In this document: positions 9,617 through 47,398 of the stretch, piece after piece
Layout: the number at the start of each line of letters is the position of its first letter
Position numbering within the stretch: the first letter of the stretch is position 1
Source: Thermosynechococcus sichuanensis E542
Lineage (GTDB): Bacteria; Cyanobacteriota; Cyanobacteriia; Thermosynechococcales; Thermosynechococcaceae
Assembly (NCBI RefSeq): GCF_003555505.1
Contig: NZ_CP032152.1
Span: 372,001-436,000, forward strand
Length of the DNA: 64,000 nt
Direction: 5' to 3'
Position numbers and translations under genes: made by a program
The notes under the pieces: generated by a model
Databases searched by the model: none
What the model saw: only the letters and a program-made list of their open reading frames with translations
What the model was told of the DNA's origin: nothing

Positions 9617-11953
9617 ATGACCACTATTGCCCGAAGTCGTTCCCCGCAGTCTGAGATACCCGCCCGCCCTATCACCACAGAAACGGTTCACTATCAGGTT
9701 GTGCATTGGATTAGGGGTCGCTTTCGGATTCGTATTCCTCGCTTGGGCTTTGATGCTGAATATGGAGCACGGCTGCTCTACATTGTTGGCAGTTTACCGG
9801 CAGTGACAACGGCGCGCATTAACCCGCCAGCGCGCTCCCTTGTGGTGGAATATAACCCCAAGCTCTTTGGGGAAGCTCTGGCAACAATTCAGGGGCAAAT
9901 TTTTGAGTCCATTCAAGTGGCGGCCAATCCCGACCTTCCTGCCCTGAGCACTGAGAAAGCCACCCCTGCAACTGAAACTCACCAAATTAACTATTGGGAA
10001 CGCTTGGGCTTACCGGCTCTTGGTTTGGGTTTAAGTGTCGCCTCCCTGATGGGGGTACCAATTCCGGGCTATGTCATTGCCAGTGTGGTGATTGCCGGGG
10101 CAACGCCAGTGTTTCAGCGGGCATGGGAAGCAATTCAAGAGGAGAAACAGTTAACGATTGACTTCCTCGATGGGTTGGCGATCGCTCTCCACACCATGCA
10201 AGGCCACTATTTTGCCCCCTCCTTTATGCTGGGTCTGATTGAAGGGGGAGAAGTGATTCGCGATTTAACCGCACGGGGATCGGAGCGGGCGAACCTTGAC
10301 TTGCTCGACTGTCTGGGCAAAACTGCCTTTGTGGAACGGGATGGCGTTGAAGTGGAGGTGGCGGTCAAAGACCTCGTTGAGGGCGATCGCGTAGTCGTCT
10401 ACCCGGGGGATCAAATCCCCGTTGATGGCATTATTTTGCGGGGTACAGGCCTGATTGATCAGTGCAAACTCACGGGTGAATCGGTACCCGTCACGCGCAC
10501 CGAGGGGATGGAGGTTTTTGCGTCAACGCTACTGGTGGATGGTCAATTGGTGATTTTGGCGGAGCGGGTGGGGAACAATACCCGTGCGGGCGTGATTGTC
10601 GGTTTAATGCAGTCGGCACCGGTGCATGACACGCGCATTGAAAACTACGCGGCGATGGTGGCCAACAAAGCAGTCATTCCCACACTGGCGATCGGCACAG
10701 GGGTAGGTTTGCTCTCTGGGGATTTGAATCGGGCGATCGCCCTGCTGACCCTTGATCTTGGTACTGGCATTCGGGTCTCTGTACCCACCACGATTTTGTC
10801 GGCGCTCACCTATGCGGCCCAACATGGCGTTCTCATTCGCAGTGGCCGAGCGATTGAAAAACTGGCGCAAATTGACACGATTGTCTTTGATAAAACGGGC
10901 ACCTTGACCCAAGGTCATGCGGGCGTCACGGATATTAAAGTTATGGATCCTCGCTTCAGTGCCGATGACATCCTCAGTATGGCCGCCAGTGCTGAGCAGG
11001 GACTCACCCACCCCGTAGCTGAAGCCATTGTCCGCCATGCCCGTGAAACCCATCAGCCCCTCTTTGACTGTGAAGACTGGGAATACCGCGTTGGCCTCGG
11101 TGTGGCCACAAAAGTGCGGGGTGTGGATCTGCGGGTGGGCAGCCGCCGCATGATGGAGCAGGAAAACATTTGCCTGATTGATCTACATGAACGCTTCCCC
11201 GATCTCGATTCTGGACGGGCATCAATTGTCTATGTGGCTGGGGATGGGCGTTTGATTGGGGTGATTCTCTACAGCGACCCGATCCGCAATGAAAGTCCCG
11301 AAGTCATCCGTGAACTCAAGGGGGCAGGCATTACTCCGCATATGCTGACCGGTGACATTGGCCGCGTTGCCCGTGCGGTGGCTAAAGATTTGGGAATTGC
11401 GCCTGACAATATCTATGCCGAAGCCTTCCCAGAAAAGAAAGTGGAGGTGGTGCGTGCCCTCCATGACAGCGGTAAAGTGGTGGCTTTCTGCGGCGATGGT
11501 ATCAATGACTCGGCGGCGCTGGCCTATGCGGATGTGTCCATTTCCTTTGCGGGGGCAACGGATATTGCCCGTGAAACTGCCGATGTCGTGCTGATGGAGG
11601 ATGATCTACGGGGACTGACCCTTGCCATTCGCATTGCCAAGCAGGCAATGGAGATTGTCTGGCAAAATACGGCAATTGTGGCCATTCCCAATATTGGCGC
11701 ATTGCTCTCCGGCATTTTCTTTGCCCTTGACCCGATTTTGGCGGTGGTCATTAACAACGGCACAGCCATCTTAGCAGAGTTGAATGGGTTGCGCCCCTTA
11801 GCAGGTCCCGGTGGTCCCTTGCCCTTACCCCCCGTCAAAGACACACAGGAATTTCTCGCTGAATGGGAAGCCACTCACCCCGATCAGCCGGTGCAGCATA
11901 TTCCACCGAAAGCCACGGGTACTCAGGCGGAGCCTTCGCGGTTGGCTGGATAA
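9617..11953 (+). CDS. P1B-like P-type ATPase lacking the CPx metal-binding motif
   Basis: Membrane cation-pump homologue of 778 residues. Residues about 28-90 resemble an HMA-type domain without a CxxC pair. The actuator carries TGES (about 286-289), the phosphorylation site is DKTGTLT with Asp about 425, an HP motif of P1B pumps (LTHPVAE) is near 464, and the hinge is GDGINDSAAL near 625. In the membrane helix where P1B pumps have CPC, SPC or CPH, this protein reads LDLGTGIRVSVPTT (about 379-392), so the usual transport ligands are missing. The transported ion cannot be assigned. No metal-responsive regulator gene is adjacent. The last 31 bases overlap a pseudouridine synthase gene on the other strand. 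Confidence 0.85.
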   Translation: MTTIARSRSPQSEIPARPITTETVHYQVVHWIRGRFRIRIPRLGFDAEYGARLLYIVGSLPAVTTARINPPARSLVVEYNPKLFGEALATIQGQIFESIQVAANPDLPALSTEKATPATETHQINYWERLGLPALGLGLSVASLMGVPIPGYVIASVVIAGATPVFQRAWEAIQEEKQLTIDFLDGLAIALHTMQGHYFAPSFMLGLIEGGEVIRDLTARGSERANLDLLDCLGKTAFVERDGVEVEVAVKDLVEGDRVVVYPGDQIPVDGIILRGTGLIDQCKLTGESVPVTRTEGMEVFASTLLVDGQLVILAERVGNNTRAGVIVGLMQSAPVHDTRIENYAAMVANKAVIPTLAIGTGVGLLSGDLNRAIALLTLDLGTGIRVSVPTTILSALTYAAQHGVLIRSGRAIEKLAQIDTIVFDKTGTLTQGHAGVTDIKVMDPRFSADDILSMAASAEQGLTHPVAEAIVRHARETHQPLFDCEDWEYRVGLGVATKVRGVDLRVGSRRMMEQENICLIDLHERFPDLDSGRASIVYVAGDGRLIGVILYSDPIRNESPEVIRELKGAGITPHMLTGDIGRVARAVAKDLGIAPDNIYAEAFPEKKVEVVRALHDSGKVVAFCGDGINDSAALAYADVSISFAGATDIARETADVVLMEDDLRGLTLAIRIAKQAMEIVWQNTAIVAIPNIGALLSGIFFALDPILAVVINNGTAILAELNGLRPLAGPGGPLPLPPVKDTQEFLAEWEATHPDQPVQHIPPKATGTQAEPSRLAG

Positions 11954-43650: not shown

Positions 43651-44592
43651 ATGGATCTCAGTCAAAAAAGGATTCTCGTCACCGGTGGGGCGGGATTTTT
43701 GGGACGCCAAGTGGTGGCACAATTGCAAAAGGCGGGGGCAGTGCCTGAGCAGATTACGGTGGTGCGATCGCGGGACTACGACCTACGCCAACTGTCTGCT
43801 TGCCAAGCCGTTGTTCAAAACCAAGATATTGTCATTCACCTTGCCGCCCATGTGGGGGGAATTGGCCTCAATCAAGCCAAGCCCGCTGAACTCTTTTATG
43901 ACAACCTGATGATGGGGGCACAACTCATTGACTGTGCCTATCGGGCGGGGGTTGAGAAATTTGTTTGTGTAGGGACGATTTGCGCCTATCCCAAATTCAC
44001 CCCCGTTCCCTTCAAAGAAAGCGATCTTTGGAACGGTTACCCCGAAGAAACCAACGCCCCCTACGGCATTGCTAAAAAAGCCCTCCTCGTACAATTACAG
44101 GCCTATCGGCAACAGTATGGCTTTAATGGCATCTATCTCTTGCCTGTGAATCTTTATGGGCCGGGGGATAACTTTGACCCCCTGAGTTCCCATGTGATTC
44201 CTGCTTTAATTCGCAAAGTTGACATTGCTCAGCAACAGGGGGAGAGGGTGATTCCCGTGTGGGGGGATGGTAGTCCTAGCCGTGAATTTCTCTATGTCGA
44301 GGATGCGGCTCGCGGCATTGTCATGGCCACCCAAGCCTACGATCATCCCGATCCCATTAACCTCGGTACGGGGGAAGAAATCACCATTAAGAATTTAGTT
44401 GACCTCATCTGCGATCTGATGGACTTTCAAGGGCAGATTGAATGGCAAACCGATAAGCCCAATGGTCAACCCCGGCGTTGCTTGGACACCACTAAGGCAA
44501 AAGAAGCTTTTGGGTTTCGTGCCCAAATTTCCCTCAAAGAAGGCTTAGAACGTACAATTGCTTGGTATCGTCAGCATGCGGCATCACTATGA
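43651..44592 (+). CDS. fcl: GDP-L-fucose synthase (epimerase/reductase)
   Basis: 313 residues; epimerises and reduces the Gmd product to GDP-L-fucose. It has LVTGGAGFLGRQVVAQL for NADP binding, VCVGTICAYPK (the catalytic Ser position reads Thr-Ile-Cys here rather than the usual SSCIYP), YGIAKKALLVQ with Tyr-x-x-x-Lys, and NLYGPGDNFDPLSSHVIPAL. The TGA stop overlaps the ATG of the GxxExxY gene (ATGA), suggesting coupled translation. Most likely used for cell-surface glycan. Confidence 0.95.
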   Translation: MDLSQKRILVTGGAGFLGRQVVAQLQKAGAVPEQITVVRSRDYDLRQLSACQAVVQNQDIVIHLAAHVGGIGLNQAKPAELFYDNLMMGAQLIDCAYRAGVEKFVCVGTICAYPKFTPVPFKESDLWNGYPEETNAPYGIAKKALLVQLQAYRQQYGFNGIYLLPVNLYGPGDNFDPLSSHVIPALIRKVDIAQQQGERVIPVWGDGSPSREFLYVEDAARGIVMATQAYDHPDPINLGTGEEITIKNLVDLICDLMDFQGQIEWQTDKPNGQPRRCLDTTKAKEAFGFRAQISLKEGLERTIAWYRQHAASL

Positions 44593-44975
44593 GAGACTGG
44601 CTTCAGATTATTAAAGAGATTGCCCAAGACATCTTCCAAGAATTAGGCAGTGGTTTCAGCGAAGCCATCTACCAAAAAGCTTTTGAGGTTGCCCTGCGGG
44701 AACGGCAAATTGAGTACGAGGAACAACGCAAGGTACCGATTTTCTTTCACGGTTATTTTGTCGGGGAAGCCATTCCCGATCTGATTGTGCGTGACAATGG
44801 TCAAGCGGTTATAGTGGTTGAACTCAAGGCTGTTCAGAATATCGGCGATAAGGAAGCCAAGCAAGTCAAGAAGTACATGGAGACCCTCAAAATTCCTGTG
44901 GGGGTTGTCGTCAACTTTCCCACTTCCACAACAGCGGATCACCCACAAATTATTGAAGTGAACCTAAGTTCTTAG
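44589..44975 (+). CDS. GxxExxY protein (PD-(D/E)XK-like)
   Basis: 128 residues from ATG 44589, which overlaps the fcl stop as ATGA. The eponymous motif is GFSEAIY, followed by KAFEVALRERQIEYEEQRK and IPDLIV...VVELKAV, the PD...ExK spacing of a PD-(D/E)XK nuclease fold. GxxExxY proteins are widespread, often near polysaccharide genes, and have no established function. It lies at the edge of the HIP1-free region and may belong to either the fucose operon or the accessory island. Confidence 0.85.
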   Translation: MRDWLQIIKEIAQDIFQELGSGFSEAIYQKAFEVALRERQIEYEEQRKVPIFFHGYFVGEAIPDLIVRDNGQAVIVVELKAVQNIGDKEAKQVKKYMETLKIPVGVVVNFPTSTTADHPQIIEVNLSS

Positions 44976-44978
44976 TCA

Positions 44979-45160
44979 TTATCCAGCACAATAATTGCGA
45001 ATCACCTCATCAATCGAACCGTTTGACTCTACATGCATCCGGGTCCGTTTCACCGCCCTAAAGTCGTGCTCAATCACGTTCAAATCAGGAGAGTAACACC
45101 CCGTGACCCGCTGCTTTGACCACTTCCTGAATTGCCCCTTTCGGCTGAATCGGTGCATTA
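44979..45160 (-). pseudogene. IS630-family transposase C-terminal remnant
   Basis: On the minus strand, one frame reads NAPIQPKGAIQEVVKAAGHG and, after a shift of frame, CYSPDLNVIEHDFRAVKRTR then IDEVIRNYCAG and a stop at 44979. YSPDLNxIE is the last catalytic Glu motif of IS630-type DDE transposases, and NAPIQ matches the MDNAPIH segment. The two pieces are out of frame, the part between them is too short, and everything upstream is lost, so the element is dead. No terminal inverted repeats were found. It separates the GxxExxY gene from the ParB-like gene. Confidence 0.8.
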
Positions 45161-45194
45161 TGCAATAACTACAAGAGCTGTATTGCAGAAAGTC

Positions 45195-45959
45195 CTAGCC
45201 AAATGAGATGCTAACTTCATCCCAGCGGCCTGACGGCGCAATTGCCTTCAGCTCATCCGCAGACTTAAATTTTGTACCTTTTTGAATTTGCTGGATGATT
45301 TTTTCAGCTTCTTCAACTTTTAAGCCTAGCACACGTTTGGTAAGATTCTCAGCCTTTTTGCAGCGATTGATCGACACAGGTGAATTCAATTTTGTTTTCC
45401 TAGGGATACCTTGCTTCAACTCAGCAAAGTTTCTTTTGAATTCATCCAATTCCTGAGCAATTTTTTCGAGTCTATCTATAATGGGTTTAATTTGGTCATT
45501 GAAGCTCTTTTGAAATTCATTAAATAATGTCATAAATGATTGGGAGTCTTGATTAACCAAGTTGCTTCCCTCTGGTGTTTGTAAATAAGAGCTACCATTT
45601 TGAGAATTTATTTGCAAAATAGACTTAAGTCTTTCTTGGAAGGTTAGAACTTCTTCATCTTCAAGCTCAATTCTTGATGCCCATAGTTGATTGATACCCA
45701 ATTCACGGGCAAATTCAACGACCTCTTTACCAAAGATAACTTCATACGCTGTGTCGCCTTCTGGTGTCGTGACTGGACGAATAATGACAGGTATGAGATT
45801 AGTTTTATATTTGTCTAAGTCCTCACGGATCAGTTGTGGTGAAGCAGAGAATAAGTCTTTGGGGTAGGTCTCTGGTACTATCAGATAATCAATATGAATC
45901 TGACCCTGATGCGTCTGATGTAAGCCGAGGTGCTTCGAGATTTGATTGGAGTAACTCAT
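45195..45959 (-). CDS. ParB-like protein with coiled coil and HhH-like C-terminus
   Basis: 254 residues. The N-terminal third (IHIDYLIVPE..., then YEVIFGKEVVEFARELGINQ) has the pattern of ParB/Srx domains, where GERR is replaced by GKEV. Residues about 140-190 are a predicted coiled coil (FNEFQKSFNDQIKPIIDRLE). The C-terminal part, LTKRVLGLKVEEAEKIIQQI followed by FKSADELKAI, resembles a helix-hairpin-helix or ComEA-like fold. It starts 3 bp after the stop of the nuclease-ParA fusion, so the pair is an operon like parA-parB. Much more AT-rich than the surrounding genes. Function inferred from context only. Confidence 0.65.
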   Translation of the reverse strand: MSYSNQISKHLGLHQTHQGQIHIDYLIVPETYPKDLFSASPQLIREDLDKYKTNLIPVIIRPVTTPEGDTAYEVIFGKEVVEFARELGINQLWASRIELEDEEVLTFQERLKSILQINSQNGSSYLQTPEGSNLVNQDSQSFMTLFNEFQKSFNDQIKPIIDRLEKIAQELDEFKRNFAELKQGIPRKTKLNSPVSINRCKKAENLTKRVLGLKVEEAEKIIQQIQKGTKFKSADELKAIAPSGRWDEVSISFG

Positions 45960-45962
45960 ACT

Positions 45963-47309
45963 TTACAACGCCTGAGTAGAAAGATAGCGAGCTAAATTTT
46001 CAAATGAAGTCGTTAAATCATCAATGGATTCTTTACCTGATCGATCTAATTCTTCATAAAACTTTCTACTGAATATCGGTTGCTGAGACTCTGTGGCGCG
46101 CAACATCACAACTCGGTGTGCAATCCATGTTGATTCGGGTAGAATTTGCACTGTCTGTCTTCCATTGGCTACTTTTTCAAGAATATTCGACAACTTCTCT
46201 TTCATCTCATAGTTAGCTGCCGATGTTGTACGATTATACATACTCACAGCGATTCCAAGGAGTCGAGGCGGAGTTTCCATGGCATCCCTGATGGCCTCAA
46301 GGCGGGCTAAAACGTACTCTATTGCCCGTATAGGGTAGGGAGCAAGTTGCGTCGGTATCAGGACTCCATCAGACGCCATCAAAGCAATGGCATTAACTTT
46401 ACCAAAAGCGGGTGGTGGATCAATCAGCACAATGTCATAGCCATGGTTTTTGAGTTTGCGCTGTAATACGCGATCAATATCAATGGTGCTGACCAGTGCG
46501 GGTTCCTTATCAGCGAGGCGAATGTGGGCGGGAACAATGTCAAGGTGCAGGTTGCCCCAAGCTCTTTGATAAACTACATCTTCTAGACTTACCCTTGGCT
46601 CTAGCAATAGGTCAGCAATATCCTTCTTGCCTTGCTCTTCTACATCTTTGAGGGGGTTAATGCCGACGCCAATGGTTAAGTTGGATTGTGGGTCAATATC
46701 AATCAAGAGAACTCGCTTACCCATCGTGGCAAAGGCAGCACCAAGGTTGAGGGTCAGCGTTGTTTTACCAACGCCTCCTTTGTGATTGAAAACAGTAATG
46801 ATCATGGGTGATTCCTTGGAAGTGGCTGTGGAGATAGAAAAATTCTTTGCAAGTGCCTTTTCAAAATGATGATAGACTTTGAGCTTTTGCTGGGTTAAGG
46901 CAGTGATTAGAGTAGCGGCTGCGGAGCGATGTAAAATTTTCGTCAGTTTCTGAATGGTTTTTTTATCAAGGGTGCCTGAAGCACATCTTACTTGTTGCAG
47001 TGGTTCTTTAAGAGGATTTTGATAAAAAAGGTGGTACTCGCGGCCGTTGGTCAGTAAGCCAAAAACTGCACGGGCAGCTTCCATATAGTTTCGCAGTTGC
47101 TGGCTACCGCTCAGTCGGGACTGCGCTGGAGTTTTCACCTCAATGATCAAATAGTTGAGGGGGCGATCGCCCGCCATTGGTAATGTCACCAAAAAATCAG
47201 GGTAGCCGTTGCCCATCCGAGGTTTGGCCTGATACTCAGAAGACTGATAGCCCCACTGCTTAAGCAACGGTAAGATAATTCTTTGTTCAGCATTTGCTTC
47301 ATTACCCAT
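45963..47309 (-). CDS. HsdR-N-like PD-(D/E)XK nuclease domain fused to ParA ATPase
   Basis: Starting at ATG 47309, 448 residues. Residues 1-120 match the N-terminal domain of type I restriction HsdR subunits: E8, the pair YPD38 and IIE57VK59, then QLRNYMEAARAVFGLLTNG and EYHLFY. After a basic linker, residue 169 begins MIITVFNHKGGVGKTTLTLN, a ParA deviant Walker A with the signature lysine, followed by LLIDIDPQSNLT and IVLIDPPPA. The ParA part looks complete. The frame is open back to TTG 47420, but a GATAAT -10 at 47361-47356 supports the later start. An AAGGA sequence precedes the internal ATG 46805, so a free ParA might also be made. Nuclease activity is inferred from residues, not shown. 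Confidence 0.8.
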   Translation of the reverse strand: MGNEANAEQRIILPLLKQWGYQSSEYQAKPRMGNGYPDFLVTLPMAGDRPLNYLIIEVKTPAQSRLSGSQQLRNYMEAARAVFGLLTNGREYHLFYQNPLKEPLQQVRCASGTLDKKTIQKLTKILHRSAAATLITALTQQKLKVYHHFEKALAKNFSISTATSKESPMIITVFNHKGGVGKTTLTLNLGAAFATMGKRVLLIDIDPQSNLTIGVGINPLKDVEEQGKKDIADLLLEPRVSLEDVVYQRAWGNLHLDIVPAHIRLADKEPALVSTIDIDRVLQRKLKNHGYDIVLIDPPPAFGKVNAIALMASDGVLIPTQLAPYPIRAIEYVLARLEAIRDAMETPPRLLGIAVSMYNRTTSAANYEMKEKLSNILEKVANGRQTVQILPESTWIAHRVVMLRATESQQPIFSRKFYEELDRSGKESIDDLTTSFENLARYLSTQAL

Positions 47310-47382: not shown

Positions 47383-47398
47383 GATTTGTTAACAAATC
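47383..47398. repeat. Perfect 16-bp palindrome upstream of nuclease-ParA operon
   Basis: GATTTGTTAACAAATC, perfectly symmetric. It lies in the divergent region between the HD-domain gene and the ParA-type operon, at about -34 to -49 relative to the putative start of the latter. Length and symmetry resemble a ParB-type centromere half-site or a dimeric repressor operator, though the sequence is not the chromosomal parS consensus (TGTTTCACGTGAAACA). Confidence 0.6.

Follow-up and report, generated by a model that had tools for sequence, protein, structure and literature searches.

A nuclease-bearing ParA ATPase and a partner of predicted ParB fold are encoded side by side in dozens of cyanobacteria, and DNA, possibly of foreign origin, is probably the target of this two-gene cassette. 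The copy described here comes from Thermosynechococcus sichuanensis E542, whose genome is a single contig of 2.65 Mb, and lies in a window (the whole stretch of DNA that was analysed) of 64,000 nucleotides. Unless another locus is named, coordinates refer to this window, in which the following features were recognized.

45195 to 45959, minus strand: open reading frame of the partner protein (254 amino acids), beginning 3 bp past the fusion gene; immediately follows the fusion in 44 of 45 loci
45240 to 45380, minus strand: helix-hairpin-helix-like (HhH-like) C-terminal DNA-binding end of the partner, about residues 194-240 (HHH_3 and model)
45417 to 45548, minus strand: long helix of the partner, probable coiled coil, about residues 138-181 (predicted secondary structure, low confidence)
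45660 to 45902, minus strand: predicted ParB N-terminal (ParB/sulfiredoxin) fold of the partner, about residues 20-100, lacking GERR and ENxQR
45963 to 47309, minus strand: open reading frame of the fusion protein (448 amino acids), a PD-(D/E)XK (HSDR_N-type) nuclease domain plus a ParA ATPase (Pfam)
45966 to 46805, minus strand: ParA domain, residues 169-448 (AAA_31; Soj/ParA chain matches)
46758 to 46781, minus strand: deviant Walker A motif KGGVGKTT, residues 177-184
46806 to 47015, minus strand: helical linker (residues 99-168), where conservation within the fusion is lowest
47016 to 47309, minus strand: nuclease domain, residues 1-98 (HSDR_N_2 match, residues 9-98)
47286 to 47288, 47196 to 47198, 47139 to 47141 and 47133 to 47135, minus strand: catalytic codons of E8, D38, E57 and K59, respectively
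47383 to 47398, no strand assigned: perfect 16-bp palindrome GATTTGTTAACAAATC, preceding the fusion ATG by 74-89 nt

The preliminary description of this locus, made from the sequence alone, had proposed that one open reading frame joins an HsdR-N-like domain, with E8, D38 and E57-x-K59, to a complete ParA ATPase. Pfam bears this out, with AAA_31 matching residues 170-344 (E = 2e-41) and HSDR_N_2 matching residues 9-98 when the domain is scanned alone (E = 1.8e-5, slightly above the curated cut-off), and all four residues are present as stated. A profile of the fusion family retrieves Soj/ParA chains of known structure, with E values down to 1e-39, and BpuSI gives a weak match to the nuclease part. 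Because orthologues can be aligned from the ATG at 47309 and two of them carry an in-frame stop just upstream, this ATG is likely to be the start of the fusion. The nearest named homologues are from Thermosynechococcus. An AlphaFold2 model of the fusion made with five sequences had a pLDDT of 43 and was set aside.

Conservation was assessed in 45 loci, which comprise neighbourhoods from 40 genomes, the window and four public contigs (L029 and L069 being one record). E4, E8, D38, E57 and K59 of the nuclease domain are unchanged in all 45, as are K177, K182, D206 and D297 of the ParA domain; homologues devoid of the catalytic residues, which the preliminary description had named as evidence against its reading, were thus not encountered in this set. 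Since the four catalytic residues are kept throughout while the domain around them falls to 21-30% identity among homologues that have all four, the nuclease signature is not a chance match. In a 31-row alignment of the nuclease the mean column identity is 31%, the four catalytic residues are among the eight invariant columns, and HSDR_N_2 is matched by 29 of the 31 homologues. Of the eight close pairs for which dN/dS could be computed in the nuclease part, seven give 0.09-0.24 and one gives 0.54, which indicates purifying selection. Conserved catalytic residues together with low dN/dS values suggest that the nuclease is very probably active.

The partner gene, said to begin 3 bp after the fusion, does so (the gap is 45960-45962), and the question of whether it is always adjacent can be answered almost in the affirmative: the gene that follows the fusion is homologous in 44 of the 45 loci (clusters c1 and c2), the exception being L074. 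Distances between the ParA parts correlate with those between the partners at r = 0.89, as against 0.39 (ParA) and 0.53 (partner) for the correlation with ribosomal protein S2 distances, and the fusion and its ParB-fold adaptor are inherited together.

Both of the features ascribed to the partner in the preliminary description, a ParB-like start and an HhH-like end, hold with qualifications. ParB_N is not demonstrable with Pfam in the window's protein taken alone but is matched by 26 of 34 partner homologues, and a search with the partner-family profile retrieves solved structures of Spo0J, ParB and Noc (best 3e-11). A structural model of medium confidence (mean pLDDT 61, with 79-88 at the HhH-like end) retrieves ParB, Noc, PadC and sulfiredoxin in Foldseek, ParB and Noc at E values of about 1e-4 to 1e-3. 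The HHH_3 match is weak in the window's partner (E = 0.003). Behind the ParB_N region, the partners are laid out as a coiled coil followed by HhH, SAP or Rho_N; in Pfam, the C-terminal ends of the 34 partners comprise HHH_3 in seven, Rho_N in six, SAP in four and HeH/LEM in two; the heads of the adaptor are interchangeable among HhH, SAP and Rho_N. A Pfam Csx12/Cas9 match of the window's partner spans the coiled coil, is seen in 1 of the 34 homologues and was rejected as a composition artefact. The GERR and ENxQR motifs, which belong to the CTPase, and the ParA-binding motif are familiar attributes of canonical ParB. Neither GERR nor ENxQR occurs in any of 44 partners, nor does the ParA-binding motif (L/F/I)G(K/R)G(L/F/I), and no ParB HTH of the kind that reads parS from a central position is among the 25 families listed in the Pfam scan of the 34 partners. 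The same three motifs are given as features of canonical ParB in passages available from a 2025 survey of the ParB fold (PMC12704722). The ParB-like start is therefore best described as a ParB-type fold in a protein that, judged by the motifs missing from all 44 partners, is not a canonical ParB and has none of the motifs on which CTP clamping and standard ParA binding depend.

A 16-sequence profile searched against 386 cyanobacterial genomes found the nuclease and ParA in one frame in 47 (counted from the table of matches), and seven further open reading frames, read directly, share this architecture, so the full fusion is present in at least 54 of the 386. Identity of the homologues ranges from 93% down to about 25%, the one in G006 standing at 69%; in L098-L102, where the first alignment started at ParA, direct reading showed the nuclease to be present. 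The distribution within the cyanobacteria is patchy, most genomes having no fusion. None was found in 301 Chloroflexota genomes or among phage records and viral contigs, and in the plasmid collection the single nuclease-bearing relative is a distant one on a 30.7-kb Nostoc plasmid, where it adjoins that plasmid's own, separate ParA-ParB pair. This relative is of the same type as L189:5869-7266 of the host genome (G000:C1 near 658.9 kb), a second and very divergent nuclease-ParA of 465 amino acids that adjoins rpsB and has no ParB-like partner.

The family falls into two divergent subfamilies that are about 25% identical to each other. In a tree of the ParA part, the window's subfamily forms one clade with the nuclease in all 21 rows, whereas in the second subfamily nuclease-less rows lie among nuclease-bearing ones, implying that gain or loss of the nuclease occurred on more than one occasion in that subfamily. 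Copies of bare ParA plus partner occur in the second subfamily, including in the host genome, so the nuclease is not needed for persistence of the pair. For example, L188:3882-5877 of the host genome encodes, after clpB, a nuclease-less ParA and a 363-residue ParB-like partner with an internal triplicated stretch, and such a pair after clpB is kept in three genomes of the Thermosynechococcus group (G000, G001 and G005). Decayed copies of the cassette also exist. L196, L198 and L200 were considered as natural two-gene versions of nuclease and ParA and rejected; their frames are split inside the ParA sequence, and they are thus frameshifts.

Very different versions of the cassette replace one another in place. 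In G204 and G297, two genomes of one genus whose S2 proteins are 96% identical, the DNA to either side of the cassette can be aligned at 75-89%, the nearest blocks stopping at position 7199 of L080 and resuming at 10881, whereas the fusions between them share 24% identity and come from separate subfamilies. The same is seen in G125 and G274, where the cassette is flanked by a ParA gene (93% identical) on one side and by a glycosyltransferase gene (84%) on the other, and for G235 and G079 an in-place difference of the cassettes is seen on one side. Restriction-modification systems and other defence loci commonly show such exchange in place between orthologous flanks; housekeeping genes seldom do. 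The cassette in G204 and G297 is bracketed by copies of a palindromic repeat, GTAGTGAGTCCTTNAGGACTC (seen in L080 and L095), which is interspersed through both genomes at 36-45 exact copies per genome; for this reason the bracketing repeats were rejected as cassette-specific ends or as parS. Because the one well-defined swap site is bracketed by such a genome-wide repeat, replacement in place may reflect easy recombination rather than selection.

The chromosomal position of the cassette differs between genomes, and its flanks are mostly housekeeping genes: in Pfam, 128 neighbours of 32 loci are mainly glycosyltransferases, isoleucyl-tRNA synthetase, histidine kinases and Uma2 proteins. Whether the operon sits near defence genes or on plasmids had been raised at the outset, and both associations prove to be sporadic, with a type II restriction-modification pair or other defence candidate found by PADLOC at single loci only, no clear defence island among the 128 neighbours, and the distant Nostoc relative as the one plasmid case. 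Across the 45 loci there is no conserved second neighbour and there are no plasmid genes around the cassette; in the loci examined no repair gene recurs beside it, and no methyltransferase (HsdM) or specificity (HsdS) gene is found among the window's open reading frames at 40-53 kb. In about 11 of the 45 loci, from both subfamilies (L030, L079, L081, L082, L088, L091, L096, L097 and L101 among them), the fusion is closely preceded by an extra ParA of about 294-330 amino acids, which in most cases is encoded on the other strand. Upstream of the fusion, G000 and G001 each contain a single copy of the 12-bp core of GATTTGTTAACAAATC, both times at this position; the palindrome is degenerate in other orthologues, its right half not being kept in all; it is possibly, if weakly, a candidate operator. 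No conserved parS-like site was found around the cassette. Directly downstream of the partner gene, the window carries a remnant of an IS630-like transposase C-terminus (45000-45190, reading ...EHDFRAVKRTRMHVESNGSIDEVIRNYCAG on the minus strand), and the downstream flanks vary among the closest relatives. Farther on, at 44562-44975 on the plus strand, lies a separate 137-residue PDDEXK_3 (GxxExxY) protein (E = 2e-31, Pfam), which is not part of the system because its cluster has no member in the other loci.

The cassette resembles several known systems in part. Wadjet and Lamassu, which are anti-plasmid nuclease systems, likewise combine a DNA-sensing ATPase with a nuclease, a likeness of possible role; however, their ATPases are of the SMC type, and we detected no sequence relationship with ParA. 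In ParABS systems (Soj/Spo0J and plasmid types Ia and Ib), too, a ParA that carries the signature lysine and the deviant Walker A precedes a gene of ParB-N fold, but here the ParA bears a nuclease, and in the partner neither GERR, ENxQR nor the ParA-binding motif occurs, nor can a parS-reading HTH be detected. The HSDR_N modules (PF13588, PF04313) present in type I restriction enzymes and related type IIC enzymes such as BpuSI belong to the same PD-(D/E)XK family; in contrast to type I enzymes, the cassette has ParA as its motor and no SF2 helicase, methyltransferase or specificity subunit. The McdAB carboxysome-positioning system (PMC6328274) also pairs a cyanobacterial ParA-type ATPase with a dedicated partner, but McdB has no ParB similarity and McdAB no nuclease. 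PadC, Noc and KorB exemplify the joining of a ParB fold to other domains outside ParABS in available passages of the 2025 survey (PMC12704722), according to which a DUF3850 fusion is the only one consistently beside parA; a nuclease-ParA with an HhH, SAP or Rho_N partner is not among the passages found. The single openly accessible paper found to mention ParA, HSDR_N and cyanobacteria together (PMC1913061) deals with other nuclease families. PADLOC gave no match to the whole, the partner drawing weak coiled-coil matches; its candidate PDC-M28B covers 118-253 of the fusion, within the ParA part only, and was rejected as its identity on that account. That no system of this composition had been described agrees with what we found in the openly accessible literature and the defence libraries, although the novelty is provisional because subscription papers and preprints lay outside this search. 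Within the same scope, no earlier account of such a plasmid partition system, the other objection foreseen in the preliminary description, came to light.

Taken together, these data make it reasonably probable that the operon encodes an ATP-controlled nuclease directed by its partner. The best overall explanation, which we advance tentatively and at somewhat less than even confidence, is an ATP-controlled DNA-cleaving machine with a ParB-fold adaptor whose likeliest role would be the removal of foreign DNA. It is supported by the invariant catalytic residues, the constraint on the nuclease, the adjacency of the partner and the correlated ParA and partner distances, as well as by the retention of the nuclease in 21 of 21 rows of the window's subfamily and the exchange of heads; the want of a fusion in the phage and viral collections speaks against it. 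From what is known of ParA biology, ATP-bound ParA dimers would bind DNA non-specifically and so might bring a pair of nuclease domains close to each other. The HhH, SAP or Rho_N head of the adaptor would bind particular DNA, and its N-terminal fold would recruit ParA and set off ATP hydrolysis and cleavage. The preliminary suggestion of an ATPase coupled to a nuclease, for instance for defence or for maintenance of an element, thus gains from the composition, adjacency and likely catalytic competence, while the evidence on role is mixed. Defence against foreign DNA (plasmid, phage or transforming DNA) is a plausible and still doubtful role, favoured by the patchy distribution, the replacement in place by very different versions and the decayed copies, and disfavoured by mostly housekeeping flanks, nuclease-less sister copies and the single plasmid relative. 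It is more speculative that the cassette represents a new cyanobacterial class of genome defence or DNA surveillance, in which a nucleoid-binding ParA carries the nuclease and an adaptor of ParB fold, devoid of CTPase motifs and with an exchangeable head, selects the target.

Whereas exchange and patchiness fit defence best, the nuclease-less sister pairs fit best with DNA positioning. A chromosome- or cargo-positioning pair like ParABS, McdAB or PadC-ParA, with the nuclease as an accessory for trimming or resolving DNA, for instance when polyploid chromosomes are managed, would agree with the complete ParA motifs, with a ParB-fold partner that has the ParB-like PadC among its structural matches, and with the persistence of bare pairs such as those after clpB. 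We nevertheless regard it as unlikely, in that such a pair would not be expected to be absent from most cyanobacteria, to vary in chromosomal location, to be swapped in place for very different versions, or to lack both a conserved parS-like site and, in all 44 partners, the ParA-binding, GERR and ENxQR motifs. Many DNA repair proteins contain HhH or SAP domains, and a repair or recombination module, its head reading a branch, gap or damaged site for the ParA-nuclease to process, would also suit a constrained nuclease with mostly housekeeping flanks rather than defence islands; yet a patchy and replaceable cassette is unlike core repair genes, and with no repair gene recurring alongside, this is improbable. 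That the cassette is a relic plasmid partition operon in the chromosome, with an N-terminal domain serving only DNA binding or autoregulation, would explain the partition-operon order of the ParA and ParB-fold genes, the candidate operator upstream and the divergent relative on the Nostoc plasmid. Such a relic would not keep its catalytic residues invariant in 45 of 45 loci under purifying selection, no plasmid genes surround those loci, and the Nostoc plasmid already possesses a ParA-ParB pair of its own, which leaves this the least credible account.

ParA ATPases have an established role as positioning motors. A conserved nuclease fusion with an intact active site would give ParA an effector arm and thereby a new way to act on DNA that has been recognized. 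The small size of the system, its presence in a thermophilic cyanobacterium with a single chromosome, and the existence of natural nuclease-less sisters would make active-site mutants and comparisons straightforward.
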